DNA from: a virus | Reading direction: 5' to 3' (one strand) | Virus record (IMG/VR): IMGVR_UViG_3300012954_000079 | Span: 1-23,988 of that record | DNA: 23,988 nucleotides | In this document: one piece after another, positions 13,966 to 23,694 of the stretch | Position numbering within the stretch: position 1 is the first letter of the stretch | Layout: every line of letters begins with the position of its first letter | Translations under genes and position numbers: made by a program | Notes under the pieces: generated by a model | Databases searched by the model: none | Told to the model about the DNA's origin: nothing | What the model saw: the letters and a program-made list of their open reading frames with translations, nothing else

Positions 13966-16620
13966 ATGGCAAGTTATAACAGAATCAAAGCACAAAAAGC
14001 CAGTCCTATCGGCACCATTATGCCATGGACTGGTAGTTCTAGCACTTCTGCTTTAACCTCTGATGCAATCCCTAAAGGGTGGATTGTCATGAGAGGTCAG
14101 CAGTTGCGAGCAAAAGATTATCCATTGTTAGCACAGACATTGGGTAACTTATATGGTCCACTTGTAGAACCAGGACAACCTTTTGTTGGAATTTCAAATA
14201 GTTATCCAAATTATAATGATGATGATGTGTTTAATTTGCCAAATCTTTCTGGACAATCATTAATTGATTTAGAAACTAGTTTGATTGATCCAACTGATTT
14301 GTTTGTTGTTGGACCATATACTTCTTTAAACGGTGCTGAGTCTGCTCAGCAACCACTAACAAATGTTATATCATATATTGATATTAATTTCTCTGTACAA
14401 GTTAGTTCTACATTGGCAGGAAAGATTAAAGGTATTGCTTTTGAAGAACCAACATTTTTTGACACTCTAAGAATTATTCCTAGAAAACTTGGTGTTGAGC
14501 ATACACCAGGTCATAGTCATTCTAGACCTACTGATGGTTTCTACCCATCTGTTGAACTTGGTGGTGGTTATCTTGGATTGTTTGAAGCAGGTAACTTTGA
14601 TGTTCAGGACAGTGAATTTGTTACTGGTGCTGATATTGGATTTAATTCTAATGAAGAACAAGCAGATAGATTTAATACAGGAGAAGTAACTTGGACAGCA
14701 TATGATCCTACAGCAAATAGTTTGCCCACATTATCTACATTTAGAAATTATTCTGATGACTCTGACGTAATTCCTATTACTCCAACAGGAAGTAGAACGG
14801 TTGGACAATATGGTAATACTGTTGAATATCAAGATGATAATAGTTGTATTGTAAACGTAGAACAACCAGCAGTTACCGCTCCATTCCCACCACCAGGAAT
14901 TTATCTAGGTCAAAGAAACTATTACATATCAGATCAAGTTCCAGGTTATAGAAGAGGAGAGGGCGTAACCTTTGTACCTCCTGCAGGTGCAGTAAATACA
15001 TTCCAATTGAGAGAGAATCTTACTAAAGCTGATGGATATTATCCAAAGAATGTGGGTAACTGGGCATACTTATCTGGATCCATGGGTTGGAGTGATATTA
15101 ATGACTCTGTTACTGGTAATTTTCCTCTAAGTGGAGGATCTGGTACAGGAATTATTGTCAATGCTACTTTTGAAGCATGGCCTGATCCCTCATTAGCAAC
15201 AGGTGGAATCTCTCCTATTGCTGGAGATTTTTCTTTACAACAAGATTCACTTGGTGGAGATAATCCTAATGAAGGTATTACTGGTAGTGGTAATTATTAT
15301 CCAGGAGTTATAAACAGTTGGGCATATAGTAATGATGGTGATCAAAAACAACTATGGACTGATGGAACTGATTTTGTAGAAGAAGAATTTAATATGACTG
15401 GTGGTAGTGGAACTGGTATGGTTCTGAGAATAAGACTAGAACCATGGAAACAACCATTTCTTCAAGGTGCTGGTATTGTTGCTGCTACATTAGAAGGTTA
15501 TCATAATGAAATTACTGCTGTTGAAGATGACTCAGCATGGACAAATGGACCAGGACCTGATGGTTGGTACAATAGTGATGGTATGGGAAATAATGATTGG
15601 TTCTATTCTACTGATGGTGATTCTGCTCAATTTTGGAATGATTACAGTGACTTTACAGTTGTCACTTGCAAATCAGATGATGGTACATTAGTATCATCTG
15701 ATGGAAATGGAGGAGGAGCTGAAATTAGACTTAGAATTGAACCAGCAAGAGGTCCCAACGCAAATGCTGCTTATCCTCCTAACGCACGATGGAGAGTAAT
15801 TGAAGTCGTTGAAGCTGGTTATGGTTTTACTCCTGGAGCAACATTACAGTGTTTGTTTAATACTGATAGAAGAGCTGCTCTAAATCTTGGTAATACCCAA
15901 ATGAACAACAGTGGTGCTACTTCTGCTGGTATTTTAAGAATTGGCACCGTTACAGATGGTTTTCAGTATCCAGACGATACTAGATATAAAATTGTTGAAA
16001 TTGTTGAAGAAGGGACAGGATATCAAATAGGTGACTTTTTAAACTTTAGTTTTAATACACCAAGAAGAATTAATCTTGGTCTTCCCAATACACAACTTGA
16101 TCCTGATCCGATCGCATTGGATGGTATCGCTGTAAATGGTGGTACTCCTGATAATACTAGATATAAAGTTAATGCTATTAATGTTTTAGGTGAAGGATAT
16201 ACTTCTGGTGACATACTAGGATTTCCTGCTAGTCAATTTAGTCCAAGAACTCCTGCTATTGCTATTGATGATTTGTTTAAAACTGAGACAGTATACCCTG
16301 GTCCCGATGGTGGTGGATCTGGTGTTATTACGGATCCAGAAGATTACTATGGTGCTGTTGGTGCTGGTAGAGATACTCCATATCCAACTACATTGAATCA
16401 TGGTGCTGATGCATTCACATCTAACTCACTTGGATCTCACAACCATTTTACTGTTGACATAACAATGTCTAGAGGTCAGATGGATTTGCCTGGCACTATT
16501 CTGATAAATAATATGACGACTGGAAATGTTGAACCTATCAATGTTGACAGGGGATTAAGCGTACAGGTTAATCCTAATACACCATCTCTAACTGTACTGT
16601 ATATTATCAGAGCATATTAA
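13966..16620 (+). CDS. Tail-collar-fold fibre/adhesin protein 1 (884 aa)
   Basis: The N-terminus matches the phage tail collar family (PF07484 type). SPIGTIMPWTG is followed by IPKGWIVMRGQ, DYPLLAQTLGNLYG and FNLPNLSGQ, spanning residues about 12-96. Two HxH clusters follow, HSH at 14512-14520 and HNH at 16438-16446. In T4 gp37 such motifs hold iron in the fibre tip, so a similar role is possible here. The middle (15030-16260) is built from internal repeats. The C-terminus, LTVLYIIRAY, resembles the ends of the next two proteins. The likely job is a virion fibre, baseplate spike or adhesin. It starts 9 bases after the giant gene in the same frame. A GGAGG at 13947-13951 is 14 bases from the ATG, rather far for a ribosome site, so coupling to the upstream gene is likely. 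Leucine is mostly TTA/TTG here. Confidence 0.75.
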   Translation: MASYNRIKAQKASPIGTIMPWTGSSSTSALTSDAIPKGWIVMRGQQLRAKDYPLLAQTLGNLYGPLVEPGQPFVGISNSYPNYNDDDVFNLPNLSGQSLIDLETSLIDPTDLFVVGPYTSLNGAESAQQPLTNVISYIDINFSVQVSSTLAGKIKGIAFEEPTFFDTLRIIPRKLGVEHTPGHSHSRPTDGFYPSVELGGGYLGLFEAGNFDVQDSEFVTGADIGFNSNEEQADRFNTGEVTWTAYDPTANSLPTLSTFRNYSDDSDVIPITPTGSRTVGQYGNTVEYQDDNSCIVNVEQPAVTAPFPPPGIYLGQRNYYISDQVPGYRRGEGVTFVPPAGAVNTFQLRENLTKADGYYPKNVGNWAYLSGSMGWSDINDSVTGNFPLSGGSGTGIIVNATFEAWPDPSLATGGISPIAGDFSLQQDSLGGDNPNEGITGSGNYYPGVINSWAYSNDGDQKQLWTDGTDFVEEEFNMTGGSGTGMVLRIRLEPWKQPFLQGAGIVAATLEGYHNEITAVEDDSAWTNGPGPDGWYNSDGMGNNDWFYSTDGDSAQFWNDYSDFTVVTCKSDDGTLVSSDGNGGGAEIRLRIEPARGPNANAAYPPNARWRVIEVVEAGYGFTPGATLQCLFNTDRRAALNLGNTQMNNSGATSAGILRIGTVTDGFQYPDDTRYKIVEIVEEGTGYQIGDFLNFSFNTPRRINLGLPNTQLDPDPIALDGIAVNGGTPDNTRYKVNAINVLGEGYTSGDILGFPASQFSPRTPAIAIDDLFKTETVYPGPDGGGSGVITDPEDYYGAVGAGRDTPYPTTLNHGADAFTSNSLGSHNHFTVDITMSRGQMDLPGTILINNMTTGNVEPINVDRGLSVQVNPNTPSLTVLYIIRAY
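15040..15480 (+). repeat. Two related NWAY / GGSGTG repeats in collar protein 1
   Basis: Copy one has GYYPKNVGNWAY and then LSGGSGTGIIV (GGSGTG at 15133) ending FEAWPDP. Copy two has NYYPGVINSWAYSNDGD and then MTGGSGTGMVL (at 15400) ending LEPWKQP. A looser third copy with DWFYSTDGDSAQFW and GGGAEIRLRIEP follows at about 15560-15750. They look like tandem beta domains. Confidence 0.65.
15787..16255 (+). repeat. Three R(Y/W)(K/R)V...GxGY..GD repeats in collar protein 1
   Basis: Copies begin at 15787 (RWRVIEVVEAGYGFTPGATL), 15982 (RYKIVEIVEEGTGYQIGDFL) and 16159 (RYKVNAINVLGEGYTSGDIL), 195 and 177 bases apart. The first two continue to F.F/NT..RR..LGL.NTQ. They are probably small beta repeats forming the head or shaft of the adhesin. 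Confidence 0.7.
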
Positions 16621-16621
16621 T

Positions 16622-17953
16622 ATGGCAGTATTTTATAGCAAAGAAAGAGCAAAGTTAGGAACACTAACTGGATCTATTATCAACTGGTCTAATCAATTGT
16701 CATCAACTGATCCAGACGATCCTAATACTTTGAGAGATTTACCTGCAGGTTATCTTAGATGTGATGGATCTGTATATCAAGCAGAGATTTATCCACAGTT
16801 AGCAGAAGTTTTAGGAGTTGGTGTTAGTTGTAGATATAAAAAACCTGATACTGATTTATTAGATAACCAATTTCAAGTTCCTGATCTAGGTGCTAAAAGT
16901 ATTAGAACATCAAATGCATCAAACTTAGGTGACTATGTTGATACTTATTTGTTAAATGATTCTGGTCAAACGATTACAAAATCTGGTGTTGGACTGGAAG
17001 TTAGTACAAATATTGGTACAGTGTTTGAAGTTCAATATCAAGGAAACTTTTTTATTCCAACACAAACTTTAGAAATTACTGGTGAACCAGGATTTACTAG
17101 AGCTACTGGTAACTATACAGAAGAATCAGAGGTATTGCATACAGCGTTTCAACCTCATGCTCACTTCCATGATGGTAAAAGATCTAGAGTTGCTGCTAGT
17201 AATGGAAATGAGTTTGGTCTCTTTGGTAGAAATTCATATGCTTCCAAGTCTACATTATGCATTATGTCTTGGGCAAACAATACCGCACAACCTTTATGTC
17301 AAGCAACAGCATCAAGACGTGCTACTGCTTTCCAAGAAAGAAGAGAGTCATATCCATGTACATTTTTTCCTCCTGATATTTTGGAATACTATGGTGCATG
17401 TTGGTCTGGATGTACCTTTGATGTTCAAAGTAAGTGTTTGATTCCTGGAAATATTCCTGGTCAAGGTACATTTGGTTGTGCTACTGGTGGATCTCAATCA
17501 GGATTTCCTATCTGGGAAGGCAACTCTGGAAACTGTGGTAACATCCGTTACACTGGTACAATGGGATGTACAACTCCTAGTCCATGTCCTGTTGGTGCTG
17601 CAATATGCTCACCACCATCATCAAATGCAAGGATTCAAACAGTTCCTGCTAACTACACACCATCAACTGTATCACAAGCTACTCAAGTTCCTTTTGATTC
17701 TGTTCCAAATGACCCTACATTTGGTGCGGTAAATAATGTTGTTACTGATGTACAAGAGTATGGTGATGAGTGTAATCACAAACATTTTGTTCCATTTGAA
17801 CAAGATGATCACACGTTTTTGGTAAAGACTAATGCTGTAAATATTCCTGCAACAGATATTGTATCTACTATCCAGATAGATATCAATGAACAAAACAAAG
17901 CAGATAGTTACATCCAACCATTTTTAGTTCAAGAGTTTTTGATTAAGTATTAA
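16622..17953 (+). CDS. Tail-collar-like virion protein 2, Cys-rich (443 aa)
   Basis: The N-terminal ~90 residues follow the collar pattern: LGTLTGSIINW, LPAGYLRCDGS, YPQLAEVLGVG and FQVPDLGAK. The protein has 14 cysteines, 11 of them between residues 213 and 329, in pairs and clusters such as ACWSGC and GCTT..PC. That is unusual for a phage structural protein assembled in the cytoplasm. Two His clusters flank the Cys-rich part: HAHFH at 17156-17170 and CNHKH ending at 17785. The Cys/His content suggests metal binding or a disulfide-stabilised tip; which of these is not shown. The C-terminus (VQEFLIKY) resembles those of the neighbours. It starts 1 base after the previous stop, with no clear ribosome site, so translational coupling is likely. 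I recognise the overall type as a conserved cyanomyovirus structural protein, but its exact role is unknown. Confidence 0.7.
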   Translation: MAVFYSKERAKLGTLTGSIINWSNQLSSTDPDDPNTLRDLPAGYLRCDGSVYQAEIYPQLAEVLGVGVSCRYKKPDTDLLDNQFQVPDLGAKSIRTSNASNLGDYVDTYLLNDSGQTITKSGVGLEVSTNIGTVFEVQYQGNFFIPTQTLEITGEPGFTRATGNYTEESEVLHTAFQPHAHFHDGKRSRVAASNGNEFGLFGRNSYASKSTLCIMSWANNTAQPLCQATASRRATAFQERRESYPCTFFPPDILEYYGACWSGCTFDVQSKCLIPGNIPGQGTFGCATGGSQSGFPIWEGNSGNCGNIRYTGTMGCTTPSPCPVGAAICSPPSSNARIQTVPANYTPSTVSQATQVPFDSVPNDPTFGAVNNVVTDVQEYGDECNHKHFVPFEQDDHTFLVKTNAVNIPATDIVSTIQIDINEQNKADSYIQPFLVQEFLIKY

Positions 17954-17956
17954 CAG

Positions 17957-20900
17957 ATGGCAACGTACAGGAATCAATATTTAAATTACTATGCCGACAA
18001 AAATGGACAACACAGTCCAGTCGGTACAATTCTTCCTGTGTTTGTTGGCACTGATCAACAAATAGATGGTGAGGATCCTGATTATACTTACAGAAATCAC
18101 TTATATTGTGATGGTAGATCTTTAAAAATTAGAGATTATCCAACTTTATATTCATCTATTAGAAATAGATATGGTGGCGCATCTGGTGTAACTGTCACTC
18201 AATCTGCAGATCCTGGTGGATTGAGAAGATCTTACATCATTAACAATAAACTATTCTTCCAGTTTTATAAGGATCCTACTAATGATAAGGTAAACGTTCA
18301 AATGCCTTATCCTTATAATACTGCATTAAGATTCAATACTATGGGGCAATTTCCTACTAATACAGGAGCAGCTCTCAATACTAATACAATATATCCTTTA
18401 GTTGAACCAACTGAAGATGTAACTTCTCAAGCACAAACAGGAGAATTTGCATATGAAGTCACACTTCCTGATAACATTGATTTAAGCACTTTTTCAGCAT
18501 CACAATATACTTGGTCATTTGTTGCACCATCTTCAGCACTACATCCAGATATTTCACTATCAAAGAGTTTTTCTCTGAATGATTATCCATATAATATTGG
18601 AACATTTAATCTACCAGACTACAGACAAAGAAAAATTTTAGGATTTGGTAATGTAAATGGTGCTGGAACAGCAACACCAGAAAATGCTATTAATAACTTT
18701 GTAGGACAGATTGGTGGAAAATGGTACATTGCAAAGAATGTATTAGTTGATAGTGGAGAATTTTTTAATGTTGGTGATGTAAAAACTACAGGATACACTG
18801 ATATTGTTGCTGATGTATCAGCATATGCAGATGGTTTTGTAAAGTATAGAGTAGGACCAATTGATGATCATACTTTCTCATTTCCACCACGACATCAACA
18901 TAGAATTTTATCTGCTGAAGTAGATGCAACCAGACGTGCTGAATTAGGACCATCTGAAGTAGATAAGTATGCTGTTAATTACATTGATAGTAGAGCAAAT
19001 ATTATTGAATTTGAACCAGAAGGTGCTGGCGGTGATCCTTTAGGTCACTCTCATGGTATTATTGGTACGAGATTGCAAAGTCCAGCGATTGCGACATATG
19101 GCAATACTCCTGGTATTGGTGAAAAAGATGCATCGTATAACTATGCGGTTTCCGAATCACCATCAGTTCCTTTAGCAAGTGTAACATACGATCCTTCTAG
19201 TGGATATATTACTTTTAATACAGATGGAAATCATGGTTTTGCTGTTGGTGATAATATTGTAGCTTCAAATGTATCACCTGCTGAATTTGCTGGAGTGTTT
19301 ACAGTAGAAGCTGCTGGATTTGGTGCAACTAATTTTAACGTACTACCAAGACCAAACGAAACACCACCAATTAATAATGCAGTTGTTGCGTCAGGTGCTA
19401 ATGTAAAATTAGCTGGTGGTTATTTTGTAGAAGAAGAAATTACACAATCACCAAGAGCATATGTTATTGATAATAATACACTAGTTGGTGGTAAGCAAGC
19501 AGAGTTTGAAATTCCAGGAAATGCTATCACAATAGCTAGTGAAACTATCACTACACCATCAAGTGCAGTTGTTCCTATTCCGAATCCAAATTTAGGTACA
19601 GTTATTGGAATACAAATTATTTTAGAAGCTCCAGGTGGTGGAGGTGCTGATAGTGACACTGATGGTGGTAATGGTGGATCAGCATCAGTTACTCTTGACG
19701 TTGATGGAGATTTATATACCATTACTGCAAATGGTGGTAGTGGTGGACAAGCAGGAAATAGTGGTGGTGCAGGTGGTCAAGGTGGAACGTTGTCCATTCC
19801 TATTTCTTTAGTAACAGATTCTAGATTTGAATTCTCTACTACTAATGGTATTAATGGTGAAGATGGTGGTCAAGGTGGTGCAGGAGCATTCTCTTTAGGA
19901 GGTGGAGGTGCGCTTAATCCAACACCTCTAAACAGAGGTGGTAATGGTGCATCAACAGCATTTGAAAGTACAACTAATGTACCAACTACAACATATACTA
20001 GTAATGGTTCTTGGACTATTCCTACCGCTTCAGGAAGTGAAACTAATAGACAAATTACTGTAAGACTATCTGGCGGTGGTGGTGGTTCAGGTAACCCAAA
20101 TGCTAACTCTACATGTAGTGGATCATGGCCAGGTCACCCAACATCAACTAGTGGCAAATCTGGTGCTGTTGGTGGTTATGGTGGTAGAGCTGCGAGACTT
20201 CTCGGTACATTAACTACAACATCAGGAACACTTTCTTGGGAAATTGGTCAAAAAGGTAACGCTGGATTCAACAATGTTGATGGTAACAACGGAACTGGAA
20301 AGGAAGCAGGACCAGCATCTGGTGGTATTGGTGGTGGTCAAACCTATGGTGGTAATAGTGGAATTGGTGCATGGGGTAACGGCGCAACTGGTGGCGGTGG
20401 CGGTGGATGTACTGGACTATTTTTGGATGGTACACTAATTGCAGGAGCTGGCGGCGGTGGCGGCGGCGGTGGATCAGGTGGTGGTTTCAACGGTGGTGGT
20501 ACTACTGATGGTTGCTATCCTGGTGGAAACCATCGTCCTGCTTCAACAAGTCTTGTCACCAGCAGCAGTGCAATAGACTTTGCTGATGGTTCTAATGGAT
20601 CATCTGGTGGTTGTACTGCTGGTAGTGGAGGCGGTGGTGGTGCTGGATGCGGCGTCGTCGGACAAAGTAATGGTGGTGTTGGTGGACAGGCAGGTGTTGG
20701 ACATAATGGTAATGGTGGTGGTACAGGTGGACGCCGTGGTGCATCGGCATTTAGAAGTGATTTTTGGGATGGTGCAGTTTCTCTTGATACTAATGGTTCT
20801 CTACCAACAACAGATGGATATGTAGAAATTGAATATAGTATTACAGAATTAAATTATGAAGATACTGGTGGTGGCGGTGGACAAGGTTCTAAACTCATAA

Positions 20901-21892
20901 TTACTATTTCTGATCTTGTAGTTCCTGTTTCTGTATCATTACAATCTGCTGGTAACGGTGGTGGCACTGGACAAGATGGTAGTAGAGGTAACATCTTTGT
21001 CAGATATGTTGGTCAAGAAGCAGGCACAACACTTCCAGGTGAAATTACAAATCCGTCTGGTAAATATTTTAATTGTACTACAAATGGTACACCTACTGGA
21101 GCTCCATTTAATGCCCCTGTTTGGCAGTCTTCTACTGATCCTAATTTAAAACAAAGAGCCTTTGGTATAGGAACTGGTAGTTCTGCTGGATTTGGTTCTG
21201 CCAATATTCCATTTAATGGAGGTAAAATAACACAGTATATCAATTTTACTGGTGCTGCGGCAGATGCTGGTGGAGATAGACAACTAGTTGTTGGTGATTT
21301 TGATATGACAGCTGTCAATAAGATAAGATTTACAATTATTAGAGGCAGTGGACAAAATGGTGGTGAAAATCCAGATGAAGCATTGAATTTATTCTATCAA
21401 AAACAAGGATCAACAAACACGACACTGTTCAGCGAAATATTACTTGCCTCAAATAATGATCCATCATGGCAAGCAATTGATATATCAGTTGCAGAAACTT
21501 CTTCAATAAGAGATAGTGGTATTACACTCATTCTATCTCAAGATAGACCAACTGGTGCAAATGACAATGCTACCGCAAATGCTGATAACTATGGTCTTGC
21601 TGCCATTACATTGTTCTATGATCCACAAATTATCAATAGATTTGTTTCTACTGGTGGAGCATCTTTACAAGGCAACTTAGATGATGCTGGATTACCAATT
21701 AATTCCGATGTGGGTATCAATCAGGTAAGACGAACTGTTACTGTGAAAGATGCATCCTTGACAGTTACGGATGGAACGTTTACAATGTCATCATCCACAC
21801 CTATTGTTACTACAGCACAAGTTGTATCTGAAGCAGATATTCCGCTAATCACTAAGTATCATAGAGTTAAATACCTAATCAAAGCATTTTAA
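17957..21892 (+). CDS. Tail-collar-fold adhesin 3 with Gly-rich receptor-binding-like region (1311 aa)
   Basis: Residues about 19-75 are collar-like (SPVGTILPVF, YCDGRS, DYPTLYSSIRNRYGG), with FNLPDYRQRKILGFG at about 216-230. HQH (18893-18901) and HSH (19046-19054) follow. A small beta module (VTYDPSSG, NHGFAVGDNI, NVLPRP) spans about 409-463. Two Gly-rich modules come next, about 528-671 and 678-1022, the second opening with SNGSWTIP, a typical entry to the Gly_rich_2 style of fibre domain. Poly-Gly runs alternate with non-Gly loops, as in gp38-type adhesins of T-even phages, where the loops between poly-Gly helices contact the receptor. The C-terminal ~290 residues are a non-Gly beta-rich domain ending YHRVKYLIKAF. 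By analogy this is the best receptor-binding candidate in the window. It lies 3 bases after the previous gene and 4 before the oxygenase. Confidence 0.75.
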   Translation: MATYRNQYLNYYADKNGQHSPVGTILPVFVGTDQQIDGEDPDYTYRNHLYCDGRSLKIRDYPTLYSSIRNRYGGASGVTVTQSADPGGLRRSYIINNKLFFQFYKDPTNDKVNVQMPYPYNTALRFNTMGQFPTNTGAALNTNTIYPLVEPTEDVTSQAQTGEFAYEVTLPDNIDLSTFSASQYTWSFVAPSSALHPDISLSKSFSLNDYPYNIGTFNLPDYRQRKILGFGNVNGAGTATPENAINNFVGQIGGKWYIAKNVLVDSGEFFNVGDVKTTGYTDIVADVSAYADGFVKYRVGPIDDHTFSFPPRHQHRILSAEVDATRRAELGPSEVDKYAVNYIDSRANIIEFEPEGAGGDPLGHSHGIIGTRLQSPAIATYGNTPGIGEKDASYNYAVSESPSVPLASVTYDPSSGYITFNTDGNHGFAVGDNIVASNVSPAEFAGVFTVEAAGFGATNFNVLPRPNETPPINNAVVASGANVKLAGGYFVEEEITQSPRAYVIDNNTLVGGKQAEFEIPGNAITIASETITTPSSAVVPIPNPNLGTVIGIQIILEAPGGGGADSDTDGGNGGSASVTLDVDGDLYTITANGGSGGQAGNSGGAGGQGGTLSIPISLVTDSRFEFSTTNGINGEDGGQGGAGAFSLGGGGALNPTPLNRGGNGASTAFESTTNVPTTTYTSNGSWTIPTASGSETNRQITVRLSGGGGGSGNPNANSTCSGSWPGHPTSTSGKSGAVGGYGGRAARLLGTLTTTSGTLSWEIGQKGNAGFNNVDGNNGTGKEAGPASGGIGGGQTYGGNSGIGAWGNGATGGGGGGCTGLFLDGTLIAGAGGGGGGGGSGGGFNGGGTTDGCYPGGNHRPASTSLVTSSSAIDFADGSNGSSGGCTAGSGGGGGAGCGVVGQSNGGVGGQAGVGHNGNGGGTGGRRGASAFRSDFWDGAVSLDTNGSLPTTDGYVEIEYSITELNYEDTGGGGGQGSKLIITISDLVVPVSVSLQSAGNGGGTGQDGSRGNIFVRYVGQEAGTTLPGEITNPSGKYFNCTTNGTPTGAPFNAPVWQSSTDPNLKQRAFGIGTGSSAGFGSANIPFNGGKITQYINFTGAAADAGGDRQLVVGDFDMTAVNKIRFTIIRGSGQNGGENPDEALNLFYQKQGSTNTTLFSEILLASNNDPSWQAIDISVAETSSIRDSGITLILSQDRPTGANDNATANADNYGLAAITLFYDPQIINRFVSTGGASLQGNLDDAGLPINSDVGINQVRRTVTVKDASLTVTDGTFTMSSSTPIVTTAQVVSEADIPLITKYHRVKYLIKAF
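19628..21024 (+). repeat. Gly-rich low-complexity coding region
   Basis: GGT/GGA/GGC-rich DNA encodes repeated G runs. The densest part, about 20386-20505, encodes stretches of six to eight Gly. GGC codons, rare in the rest of the window, are interspersed with GGT in the longest runs, which breaks up what would otherwise be perfect trinucleotide repeats. Four Cys codons lie in or near the runs in the second module (for example GGGC at about 20406 and SGGC at 20612). Confidence 0.85.
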
Positions 21893-21896
21893 ATTA

Positions 21897-22505
21897 ATGG
21901 CAGATTTTATTTTTCCACCTGAGAAATTGGTGGCTGATTTTGACGATTTTATTGGTATCTGGGATAATTTCTTCCCACCGCAGATGTGTGATGATGTAAT
22001 TGAGAAATGTCTGCAAGCAAAAGAAAATAATGGATGGATGAATGTAGATTGTGGTATGGGACAATTTCCACATGGAAAGTTAGGTCGTAGTGATTATCAA
22101 TATTTGTTCAATGAACATGAGAGTGAGATATCCAAGCAAGTAAGAGAATATTTAAAATGTTGTGTTGCAAGTTATACTACTGAATTTGCTACATTGAGAC
22201 CAACTAAAATGATTACTAATATCATTAAGTTTCAGCAAACACCTCCTGGTGGTGGTTATCATGACTGGCATTATGAAACTTCCGCATATCATGCTTCTAG
22301 TCGTGAATTAGTATGGACAATATATCTCAATGATATGCCTGTAGGTGAAGCAGAAACTGAGTTCATCTATCAAAAAAGAAGAGTACAACCAAAAAAAGGC
22401 AGAGTTGTAATTTGGCCAGCGGCATTCACCCATACACATAGGGGAAATACTGTATTTTCCCAAGATAAATACATTTTAACAGGATGGATTCATAAGACAG
22501 TATAA
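21897..22505 (+). CDS. 2-oxoglutarate/Fe(II)-dependent oxygenase, prolyl-4-hydroxylase-like (202 aa)
   Basis: It would use 2-oxoglutarate, O2 and Fe(II) to hydroxylate a substrate in the infected cell. The C-terminal half carries the double-stranded beta-helix signature. GGGYHDWHYE (118-127) supplies H125 and E127, an HxE version of the usual HxD iron ligands. ELVWTIYLND and ETEFIYQ form the core strands, and RVVIWPAAFTHTHRGN supplies the distal His. H181 is 10 residues before K191, the same distance as between distal His and 2OG-binding Lys in collagen prolyl hydroxylase. Length is normal for a minimal phage oxygenase. 2OG oxygenases are common in cyanomyoviruses, but their substrates are largely unknown. 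It sits directly behind three adhesin genes, so a virion protein is a reasonable guess. There is no clear Shine-Dalgarno before the ATG; the upstream stop is 4 bases away. Confidence 0.85.
   Translation: MADFIFPPEKLVADFDDFIGIWDNFFPPQMCDDVIEKCLQAKENNGWMNVDCGMGQFPHGKLGRSDYQYLFNEHESEISKQVREYLKCCVASYTTEFATLRPTKMITNIIKFQQTPPGGGYHDWHYETSAYHASSRELVWTIYLNDMPVGEAETEFIYQKRRVQPKKGRVVIWPAAFTHTHRGNTVFSQDKYILTGWIHKTV
22464..22472 (+). promoter_or_regulatory. Possible T4-type late promoter (GATAAATAC)
   Basis: GATAAATAC resembles the T4 late -10 element TATAAATA and lies inside the end of the oxygenase gene, about 36 bases before the next ATG. It is coding sequence for DKY, so chance is a serious alternative; similar TAAATA strings occur elsewhere in the window. 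Confidence 0.2.
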
Positions 22506-22507
22506 AC

Positions 22508-23329
22508 ATGGACATCGCATCACCATCAAAAACAGCATTGTACTTGAATGCATTTGATAAAAACATTCAAGTTGACGGAGTTATCAAGACAATTGATGAC
22601 TCATATTGGGCAGACAACATTGTTCCCATCTTGTATCCTCTATGGGATTCTGATAAAGATAAACTAGAAGTTTTTGTCAAGTACAAGGATGGTACGGCAA
22701 AGATGAACAAGACCAAGTATCAACGTCAGCAGAAGACTGGTGTATACAAGTGGGTCTCTTATCAGTTTGATCTATCACCATTTACTGATGAAGTAGATGA
22801 TTTGTATAATCGTCTCTTAGAAAAGTATACAGAGTATAGAGTAGGACAAGAAAACGATTTAGAAAGATCGTTAGCAGGAGCATTTGCAAAGAGTGCTATT
22901 CTTAATTGGAATAAAGTTATTCTAATTAGAAACTTTCTACTCATGGACAGTGATTGGACACAACTTGGTGATGTACCACTCACTGATGCTCAAAAAGAAA
23001 ACTGGAGAACATATCGTCAGAAGTTGAGAGATTTACCAGAAGATCAGAGCTCTGCTGCTGCTAATGATGTAAAATTCCCAGTAACACCATCTAAACATGA
23101 AGCAATGGAAGATGGCAAGGAGTATCTATCTGATGAATTTAATCATGTCTATAAGATGAATCAAATAGTATACAGTAAATTTGCAGATAGAATCACTAAC
23201 TATCTTGCTATTGCTATTTCTACTCAAGCAATTGATGAGATGCCTGTAAGTAGAGTACATAGAGTACAAACTAATGATAAGTCTCTTGATGATATCTTGT
23301 CCATTATTGAAGAAGGAGAAGTAGGATAA
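22508..23329 (+). CDS. Protein with C-terminal tail assembly chaperone-type domain (273 aa)
   Basis: Residues about 138-194 match the phage tail assembly chaperone pattern (PF16778 type): RNFLLMDSDWTQLGDVPLTD, then WRTYRQKLRDLPE, then FPVTP. In other phages this domain sits in small proteins encoded just after tail fibre genes and helps fibre assembly. Here it follows a ~135-residue N-terminal part (WADNIVPILYPLW, KYKDGTAKM, YKWVSYQFDLSPF) that I do not recognise. Another ~75 residues of mixed, acidic-ended sequence come after it (DDILSIIEEGEVG). A role in folding or attaching the adhesins encoded upstream is likely but inferred. It starts 2 bases after the oxygenase stop with no clear ribosome site, and its stop overlaps the next start by one base (TAATG). 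Confidence 0.7.
   Translation: MDIASPSKTALYLNAFDKNIQVDGVIKTIDDSYWADNIVPILYPLWDSDKDKLEVFVKYKDGTAKMNKTKYQRQQKTGVYKWVSYQFDLSPFTDEVDDLYNRLLEKYTEYRVGQENDLERSLAGAFAKSAILNWNKVILIRNFLLMDSDWTQLGDVPLTDAQKENWRTYRQKLRDLPEDQSSAAANDVKFPVTPSKHEAMEDGKEYLSDEFNHVYKMNQIVYSKFADRITNYLAIAISTQAIDEMPVSRVHRVQTNDKSLDDILSIIEEGEVG
23313..23318 (+). promoter_or_regulatory. Ribosome binding site AAGGAG for the 121-aa protein
   Basis: AAGGAG ends 10 bases before the ATG at 23329, inside the end of the preceding gene. It supports that start, which also overlaps the upstream stop as TAATG. It is the clearest Shine-Dalgarno in the window. Confidence 0.55.
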
Positions 23330-23694
23330 TGCTAATCTCTTTAAATCCTAAAACAGAAGCAATGTTAGTAGCAGACTATGCTGCTATTGCTGAGAAATAC
23401 GTCATTGTTATTGATAATAGTCAGTATCATACACTATCTGATACTAAGAAAGCGGAAATTTTTGCATGGTACGAAGATATCATTCCAGAAGCAGAGATTG
23501 ATAGAATCTTTGAACTAAAGACAGTATACTATTATTTCCCAAATGAGCAGAGTGCAGTGGACAATTGTTACGACTGGTTCCCACAACCACAGAACTGCCC
23601 TGATGCAATGCATCACATTCCAGCATATGTGATCAAACCTAATGGTGGCATTCCATATGTTAATACAAATCCAACACCACCAGAAGAGGGTTGA
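23329..23694 (+). CDS. Small hypothetical cyanophage protein (121 aa)
   Basis: I do not recognise a named family. The N-terminal half looks mixed alpha/beta (YVIVIDNSQYHTL, then a helix EIFAWYEDIIPEAEIDRIFE). The second half is aromatic- and Pro-rich with two Cys (VYYYFPNEQ, NCYDWFPQPQNCPDAMHH) and ends in a Pro/Glu tail (NPTPPEEG). It has no signal peptide or membrane helix. The one-base overlap with the chaperone-domain gene and a good AAGGAG upstream suggest it is translated with it, perhaps as an accessory assembly or minor virion protein; that is inference from position only. The stop codon overlaps the -35 box of a candidate promoter. Confidence 0.7.
   Translation: MLISLNPKTEAMLVADYAAIAEKYVIVIDNSQYHTLSDTKKAEIFAWYEDIIPEAEIDRIFELKTVYYYFPNEQSAVDNCYDWFPQPQNCPDAMHHIPAYVIKPNGGIPYVNTNPTPPEEG

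Follow-up and report, generated by a model that had tools for sequence, protein, structure and literature searches.

The stretch of DNA analysed here, called the window, is the 23,988-base virus record IMGVR_UViG_3300012954_000079. Along its plus strand, a gene for a very large structural protein is followed by genes for three Collar-domain fibre proteins (884, 443 and 1311 aa), a 202-aa ORF, a 273-aa Phage_tail_APC protein, a 121-aa ORF and a DUF4385 protein. The features relevant to the 202-aa ORF are listed below.

13966..16620, plus strand: fibre protein 1, 884 aa, Collar domain (profile matches)
16622..17953, plus strand: fibre protein 2, 443 aa, Collar domain (profile matches)
17957..21892, plus strand: tail fibre protein 3, 1311 aa, with an N-terminal Collar domain, a Gly-rich stretch and a weak Reelin_subrepeat-B match (ORF, profile matches)
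20288..20740, plus strand: Gly-rich stretch of fibre 3, 44% Gly over 150 aa, 3 Pro (composition)
21897..22505, plus strand: predicted 2OG/Fe(II) oxygenase with a prolyl-4-hydroxylase fold, 202 aa, PHROG 61, T4-GC 240 type (ORF, Pfam, PHROG, alignment, model)
22269..22277, plus strand: codons of H125-Y126-E127, the putative HxE iron motif (alignment; bacterial relatives have Asp at the E127 column)
22437..22439, plus strand: codon of H181, the putative distal iron-binding histidine (invariant in alignments)
22467..22469, plus strand: codon of K191, the presumed 2-oxoglutarate-binding lysine (invariant; role taken from prolyl 4-hydroxylases)
22508..23329, plus strand: tail assembly chaperone, Phage_tail_APC, 273 aa (profile matches; begins 2 bases past the oxygenase)
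23329..23694, plus strand: small ORF, 121 aa, no function assigned (behind the chaperone in most window-type relatives)

The oxygenase ORF starts with an ATG at 21897, four bases after the stop codon of fibre 3, and its own stop codon ends at 22505. An earlier note on this DNA had described the gene as lying behind three adhesin genes and ahead of a tail assembly chaperone gene, and this layout is correct: three Collar-domain fibre genes stand upstream and the Phage_tail_APC gene follows 2 bases downstream. The middle part of fibre protein 2 (16622-17953; translation read by eye) is unusually Cys-rich for a phage tail protein. The window itself carries no host marker; the virus, a marine one, is most likely a T4-like cyanophage, since the named phages with this locus infect Synechococcus or Prochlorococcus and psbA is present on a related 186-kb contig (L074). 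Among the long relatives psbA was found only on this contig, where it is broken by apparent frameshifts. Stops or frame breaks affect the oxygenase and the chaperone of L074 as well, and the contig looks like an assembly with indel errors.

The oxygenase matches Pfam family PF13640 (2OG-FeII_Oxy_3) with an E-value of 8.8e-11 (43.1 bits, cut-off 27) and PHROG 61 with an E-value of 4e-46, and a tblastn search with it gives matches in 394 phage records. Its dN/dS against six relatives is 0.02-0.13, with the larger dS values near saturation, and the gene is under strong purifying selection. H122, H125, E127, R136, H181 and K191 are invariant in an alignment of 32 sequences, and the motif takes the form [YF]HxxHxE both there and in 79 viral-contig loci that we collected by the enzyme alone. 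If bacterial relatives are added to the alignment, H125, H181 and K191 are still invariant, and the E127 column is Asp in four alphaproteobacterial rows. E127 is therefore the carboxylate of the iron triad, standing at the Asp place of HxD. The residues picked out in the earlier note (H125-Y-E127, H181 and K191) are numbered correctly, with 10 residues from H181 to K191. Its view of HxE as replacing HxD stands as far as the alignment column is concerned, but HxE is not an oddity. The idea that it is a peculiarity of the window protein can be dismissed since HxE occurs throughout the phage family, of which it is the norm. The family is common in cyanophages.

The AlphaFold2 model of the oxygenase (pLDDT 85, pTM 0.85) has a double-stranded beta-helix fold, and Foldseek relates it to solved 2OG/Fe(II) members with a probability of 1.00. 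The best solved-structure matches are the PBCV-1 viral collagen prolyl hydroxylase, P. putida P4H, PHD2 and B. anthracis P4H. A search with the alignment profile likewise matches solved P4Hs (E 8e-10 to 1e-8). With a profile score above the cut-off, a conserved HxD/E...H triad plus a basic residue and the beta-helix fold, the ORF can be taken, from sequence and model, as a genuine 2OG/Fe(II) oxygenase with a predicted prolyl-4-hydroxylase fold, and the suggestion of a prolyl hydroxylase-like enzyme is borne out by the modelled fold and the profile matches to P4Hs. P4Hs are its nearest solved relatives by both profile and fold. Nonetheless, we prefer the name P4H-like to P4H because the whole phage family has HxE rather than the HxD of characterised P4Hs.

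The P4Hs of B. anthracis and P. putida carry HxD; PHD2/EGLN HIF prolyl hydroxylases have HxD and use Arg for 2-oxoglutarate. PHD2 matches the model with a TM of ~0.7 at a sequence identity of ~14%. The two bacterial P4Hs share the fold, and the B. anthracis enzyme is the best profile match (E 8e-10), but identities are ~12-19%, and the titles of structures 5v7y and 4iw3 link these enzymes to EF-Tu. PBCV-1 vCPH (5c5t), also a viral enzyme, is the best solved-structure match (TM 0.66-0.73, profile E 1.3e-8); it differs in its host and genome context and is only 18-20% identical. Another difference is that the surroundings of the phage enzyme yielded no recognisable collagen-like repeat: on reading, the Gly-rich stretch of fibre 3, with its 3 Pro in 150 aa, contains no Gly-X-Pro series, and no proline-bearing collagen-like Gly-X-Y protein of the kind expected for a collagen prolyl hydroxylase was seen nearby.

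The enzyme might instead act on nucleic acids; an AlkB- or TET/JBP-like role in DNA repair or base modification is an idea raised for the 2OG proteins of cyanophages (Weigele 2007, as cited in PMC3037559). A weak PHROG overlap with 'DNA endonuclease' families points the same way. However, the label seems to be misleading, because a protein of PHROG 274 that bears the name endonuclease V proves by Pfam to be a 2OG oxygenase, and the best 50 solved-structure matches listed are all of the prolyl-hydroxylase type, with neither AlkB nor TET among them. We consider a nucleic-acid substrate highly improbable. The protein in question is S-PM2 p230 (L087:14253-14762); it and its homologues are annotated 'DNA endonuclease V', score above the cut-off of Pfam 2OG-FeII_Oxy_3 and look like misnamed 2OG oxygenases.

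The gene context is conserved. Fibre, oxygenase and chaperone genes are directly adjacent, with nothing between them, in 57 of the 79 enzyme-fetched loci, and at least 6 others, on truncated or frame-broken contigs, agree over the part that is present; the remaining loci, mostly of no more than 42% identity, have other neighbours. All loci with this order together give median gaps of 1 and -4 bases. The window has the same arrangement, with a fibre gene directly upstream and a Phage_tail_APC / PHROG 4697 chaperone directly downstream. It is also found in 13 annotated genomes: S-RSM4, S-PM2, Syn1, S-CAM1, S-CAM3, S-CAM4, ACG-2014e, S-RIM32, ACG-2014h and S-H9-1, which stand for ten named Kyanoviridae genera, and three sponge-associated Sf- phages. 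Loci fetched by the S-RSM4 chaperone contain the enzyme in every case where the upstream sequence is covered. Even in the distant group of the L063 type, as in P-RSM4, a tail fibre gene (PHROG 6942) adjoins the enzyme, and at another distant locus (L079) a Collar-domain protein is encoded two genes upstream. The survey proposed in the earlier note thus placed the oxygenase beside a fibre gene in contig loci and annotated genomes alike; most relatives do not have it at a distance from fibre genes, the outcome that the note had named as refuting.

The cyanophage oxygenases of PHROG 61 / T4-GC 240, such as S-PM2 p227 and S-RSM4 SRSM4_210, share family, HxE and the fibre/chaperone slot with the window enzyme, to which these two are 42-44% identical. 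The S-PM2 type differs in that its adjacent fibre is not Gly-rich and more 2OG genes follow behind the chaperone. Fibres next to the enzyme in the 13 annotated genomes are of different types. The more specific expectation of a pairing with the Gly-rich adhesin therefore held only in part: the enzyme does sit directly behind a fibre gene, but since S-PM2-type neighbours are not Gly-rich and many Gly-rich fibres occur without the enzyme, its partner would not be the Gly-rich adhesin as such, and the Gly-rich domain is ruled out as a constant partner.

Among 52 non-redundant loci, enzyme distances rise and fall with those between fibre C-termini (r 0.976) and between chaperones (r 0.964), although shared ancestry is uncorrected in these values and any co-inherited neighbours would score high. 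In the tree, there is a single group for each enzyme type: window, S-RSM4, S-PM2 and freshwater. Taken together, the tracking distances and the single group per type indicate that enzyme, fibre C-terminus and chaperone are inherited vertically as a unit.

Collecting loci with the chaperone revealed fibre-chaperone pairs that have no enzyme. One such group is the window's sister clade, where the chaperone start follows the fibre stop codon with 0 bases in between; this clade is nested among enzyme carriers with a support of 100/99. The enzyme is likewise missing from S-WAM2 and phages related to it, from Sf-FR1 plus two relatives, and from several lineages of freshwater and marine origin. At least 3 gains or losses of the enzyme are implied by a tree of 87 non-redundant loci, which was built by a quick method without bootstrap. 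Relocation of the gene in these genomes finds no support, as only distant paralogues were detected, in 4 of 51 enzyme-free contigs, most of which are fragments. The gene is thus facultative and its slot fixed, because enzyme-free lineages keep fibre and chaperone and lack the gene at the same point.

Such facultative presence is typical of accessory genes, and the oxygenase might be an auxiliary metabolic enzyme acting on a host protein, a small molecule or the 2-oxoglutarate pool, merely sited in the late tail operon. Its PHROG class is auxiliary metabolic, many such genes are found in cyanophages, and a link of cyanophage 2OG oxygenases to 2OG and NtcA has been proposed (PMC3037559). By their PDB titles, the P4Hs of B. 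anthracis and P. putida bind or modify the bacterium's own EF-Tu. A position near a tail gene could also reflect an accessory-gene region, since S-PM2-type phages carry more 2OG genes further along and the genome of S-SCSM1 has 24 2OG oxygenase copies (PMC9602691). Yet accessory genes are usually mobile. This subfamily, by contrast, occupies the very same position in ten named genera, with the fibre on one side and the chaperone on the other, and diverges in step with these two neighbours. Furthermore, a shallow scan of bacterial genomes gave distant relatives only and no cyanobacterial one. All in all, an auxiliary metabolic role seems rather unlikely to us. Recent capture from a host is not supported either; within the limited sensitivity of the scan, close relatives are phage-borne and bacterial ones distant.

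The likeliest role of the oxygenase, in our opinion with about an even chance of being the true one, would be to hydroxylate the fibre or some other protein of the distal tail. The nearest solved matches (PBCV-1, P. putida, PHD2 and B. anthracis) are all protein hydroxylases, so a protein substrate is what we infer, and a gene order that recurs across many related viruses suggests that the enzyme may modify the fibre. In the window, fibre 3 would most likely be the substrate. As an Fe(II)/2-oxoglutarate-dependent hydroxylase of P4H fold, the enzyme might act on a residue of the fibre encoded upstream, or of another distal tail protein, while the fibre is synthesized and folded with the chaperone encoded downstream, and the hydroxylation could tune fibre stability or receptor binding. 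That several lineages retain fibre and chaperone with no enzyme in between speaks against a fibre role, and so does the scarcity of proline in the Gly-rich stretch. In view of the enzyme-free lineages, the modification would be an optional tuning step rather than a requirement for fibre assembly. The conserved position lends real but circumstantial support to the idea, already voiced in the earlier note, that the substrate is a virion protein. Our search of the open-access literature found no report of phage fibre hydroxylation and no mass-spectrometric evidence for a hydroxylated virion protein.

The enzyme-free lineages also permit a search for the target residue. In a first comparison, four fibre columns, including the adjacent D1203-N1204 of fibre 3, were conserved with the enzyme and lost without it. 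D1203-N1204 is kept in enzyme-carrying marine and freshwater relatives; the enzyme-free sister clade has other residues there, and in S-WAM2 this Asp-Asn loop shows N>Q. However, the NDN loop is intact in freshwater lineages without the enzyme and in other enzyme-free phages related to S-WAM2, which rules it out as the hydroxylation site. A change of the D-F-S-x-G-N motif in Sf-FR1, seen by eye, was dropped on the same ground, being confined to a single divergent lineage. We then scanned three enzyme-free clades, counting columns lost in at least two of them: 0 of 20 C-terminal and 0 of 48 N-terminal conserved fibre columns are lost together with the enzyme. Nor do the overall contents of Pro, Asn, Asp, Lys and Gly differ consistently with and without it. 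The scan adds no support for fibre modification; nor does it amount to a refutation, as phages may tolerate an unmodified residue. The loop itself, at residues 1196-1213 of fibre 3 (window 21542-21595), reads RPxGxxDN...DNYG near the C-terminus and R-GPxYQT...DNYG in the enzyme-free sister clade; it is possibly a metal site.

The same scan bears on the chaperone, or some other non-virion assembly factor, whose modification might regulate fibre assembly. Adjacency and co-divergence apply to the chaperone just as they do to the fibre. On the other hand, out of 39 conserved columns of the chaperone just 1 differs in two enzyme-free clades, by a Ser/Thr exchange, and the chaperone persists without the enzyme in several lineages. 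A substrate of this kind is in our view quite improbable.

In the case of fibre hydroxylation, it is tempting to speculate further that widespread T4-like cyanophages carry a putative fibre-modification cassette, in which an HxE enzyme of P4H fold hydroxylates the fibre beside the fibre's own chaperone, and that otherwise matching phages change their receptor-binding fibre from modified to unmodified, or back, as they lose or gain the gene. We offer this tentatively, holding its chances to be somewhat below even. The fixed slot and the natural enzyme-free lineages point to modification of a virion protein and provide a clean comparison. Hydroxylated tail fibres, if real, would add a new layer to the recognition between phage and host.

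Few unexplained genes of marine phages are as common as those for 2OG oxygenases. In cyanophages these enzymes have long been known (14 of 16 genomes), and they have been credited with a part in 2OG/NtcA signalling and host nitrogen sensing, or with DNA repair, explanations put forward without tests (PMC3037559). A Baltic Sea study mentions a viral prolyl 4-hydroxylase together with tail-fibre collagen and calls its use cryptic (PMC9301287), and the Phold paper reports EGLN3-like folds for marine phage 2OG oxygenases (PMC12774648). The enzyme family and its occurrence in cyanophages are thus already known. As to the conserved gene context, a limited, open-access search found no description of the fibre-oxygenase-chaperone order or of its presence/absence pattern. 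The Phold paper gives glutamine as the third conserved residue of the triad; it is glutamate in our alignment, so this is possibly a slip. Finally, Synechococcus phage Sf-CH1b (L081:11959-18359) has six genes annotated as 2OG/prolyl-hydroxylase type within ~6.4 kb directly behind a fibre gene.
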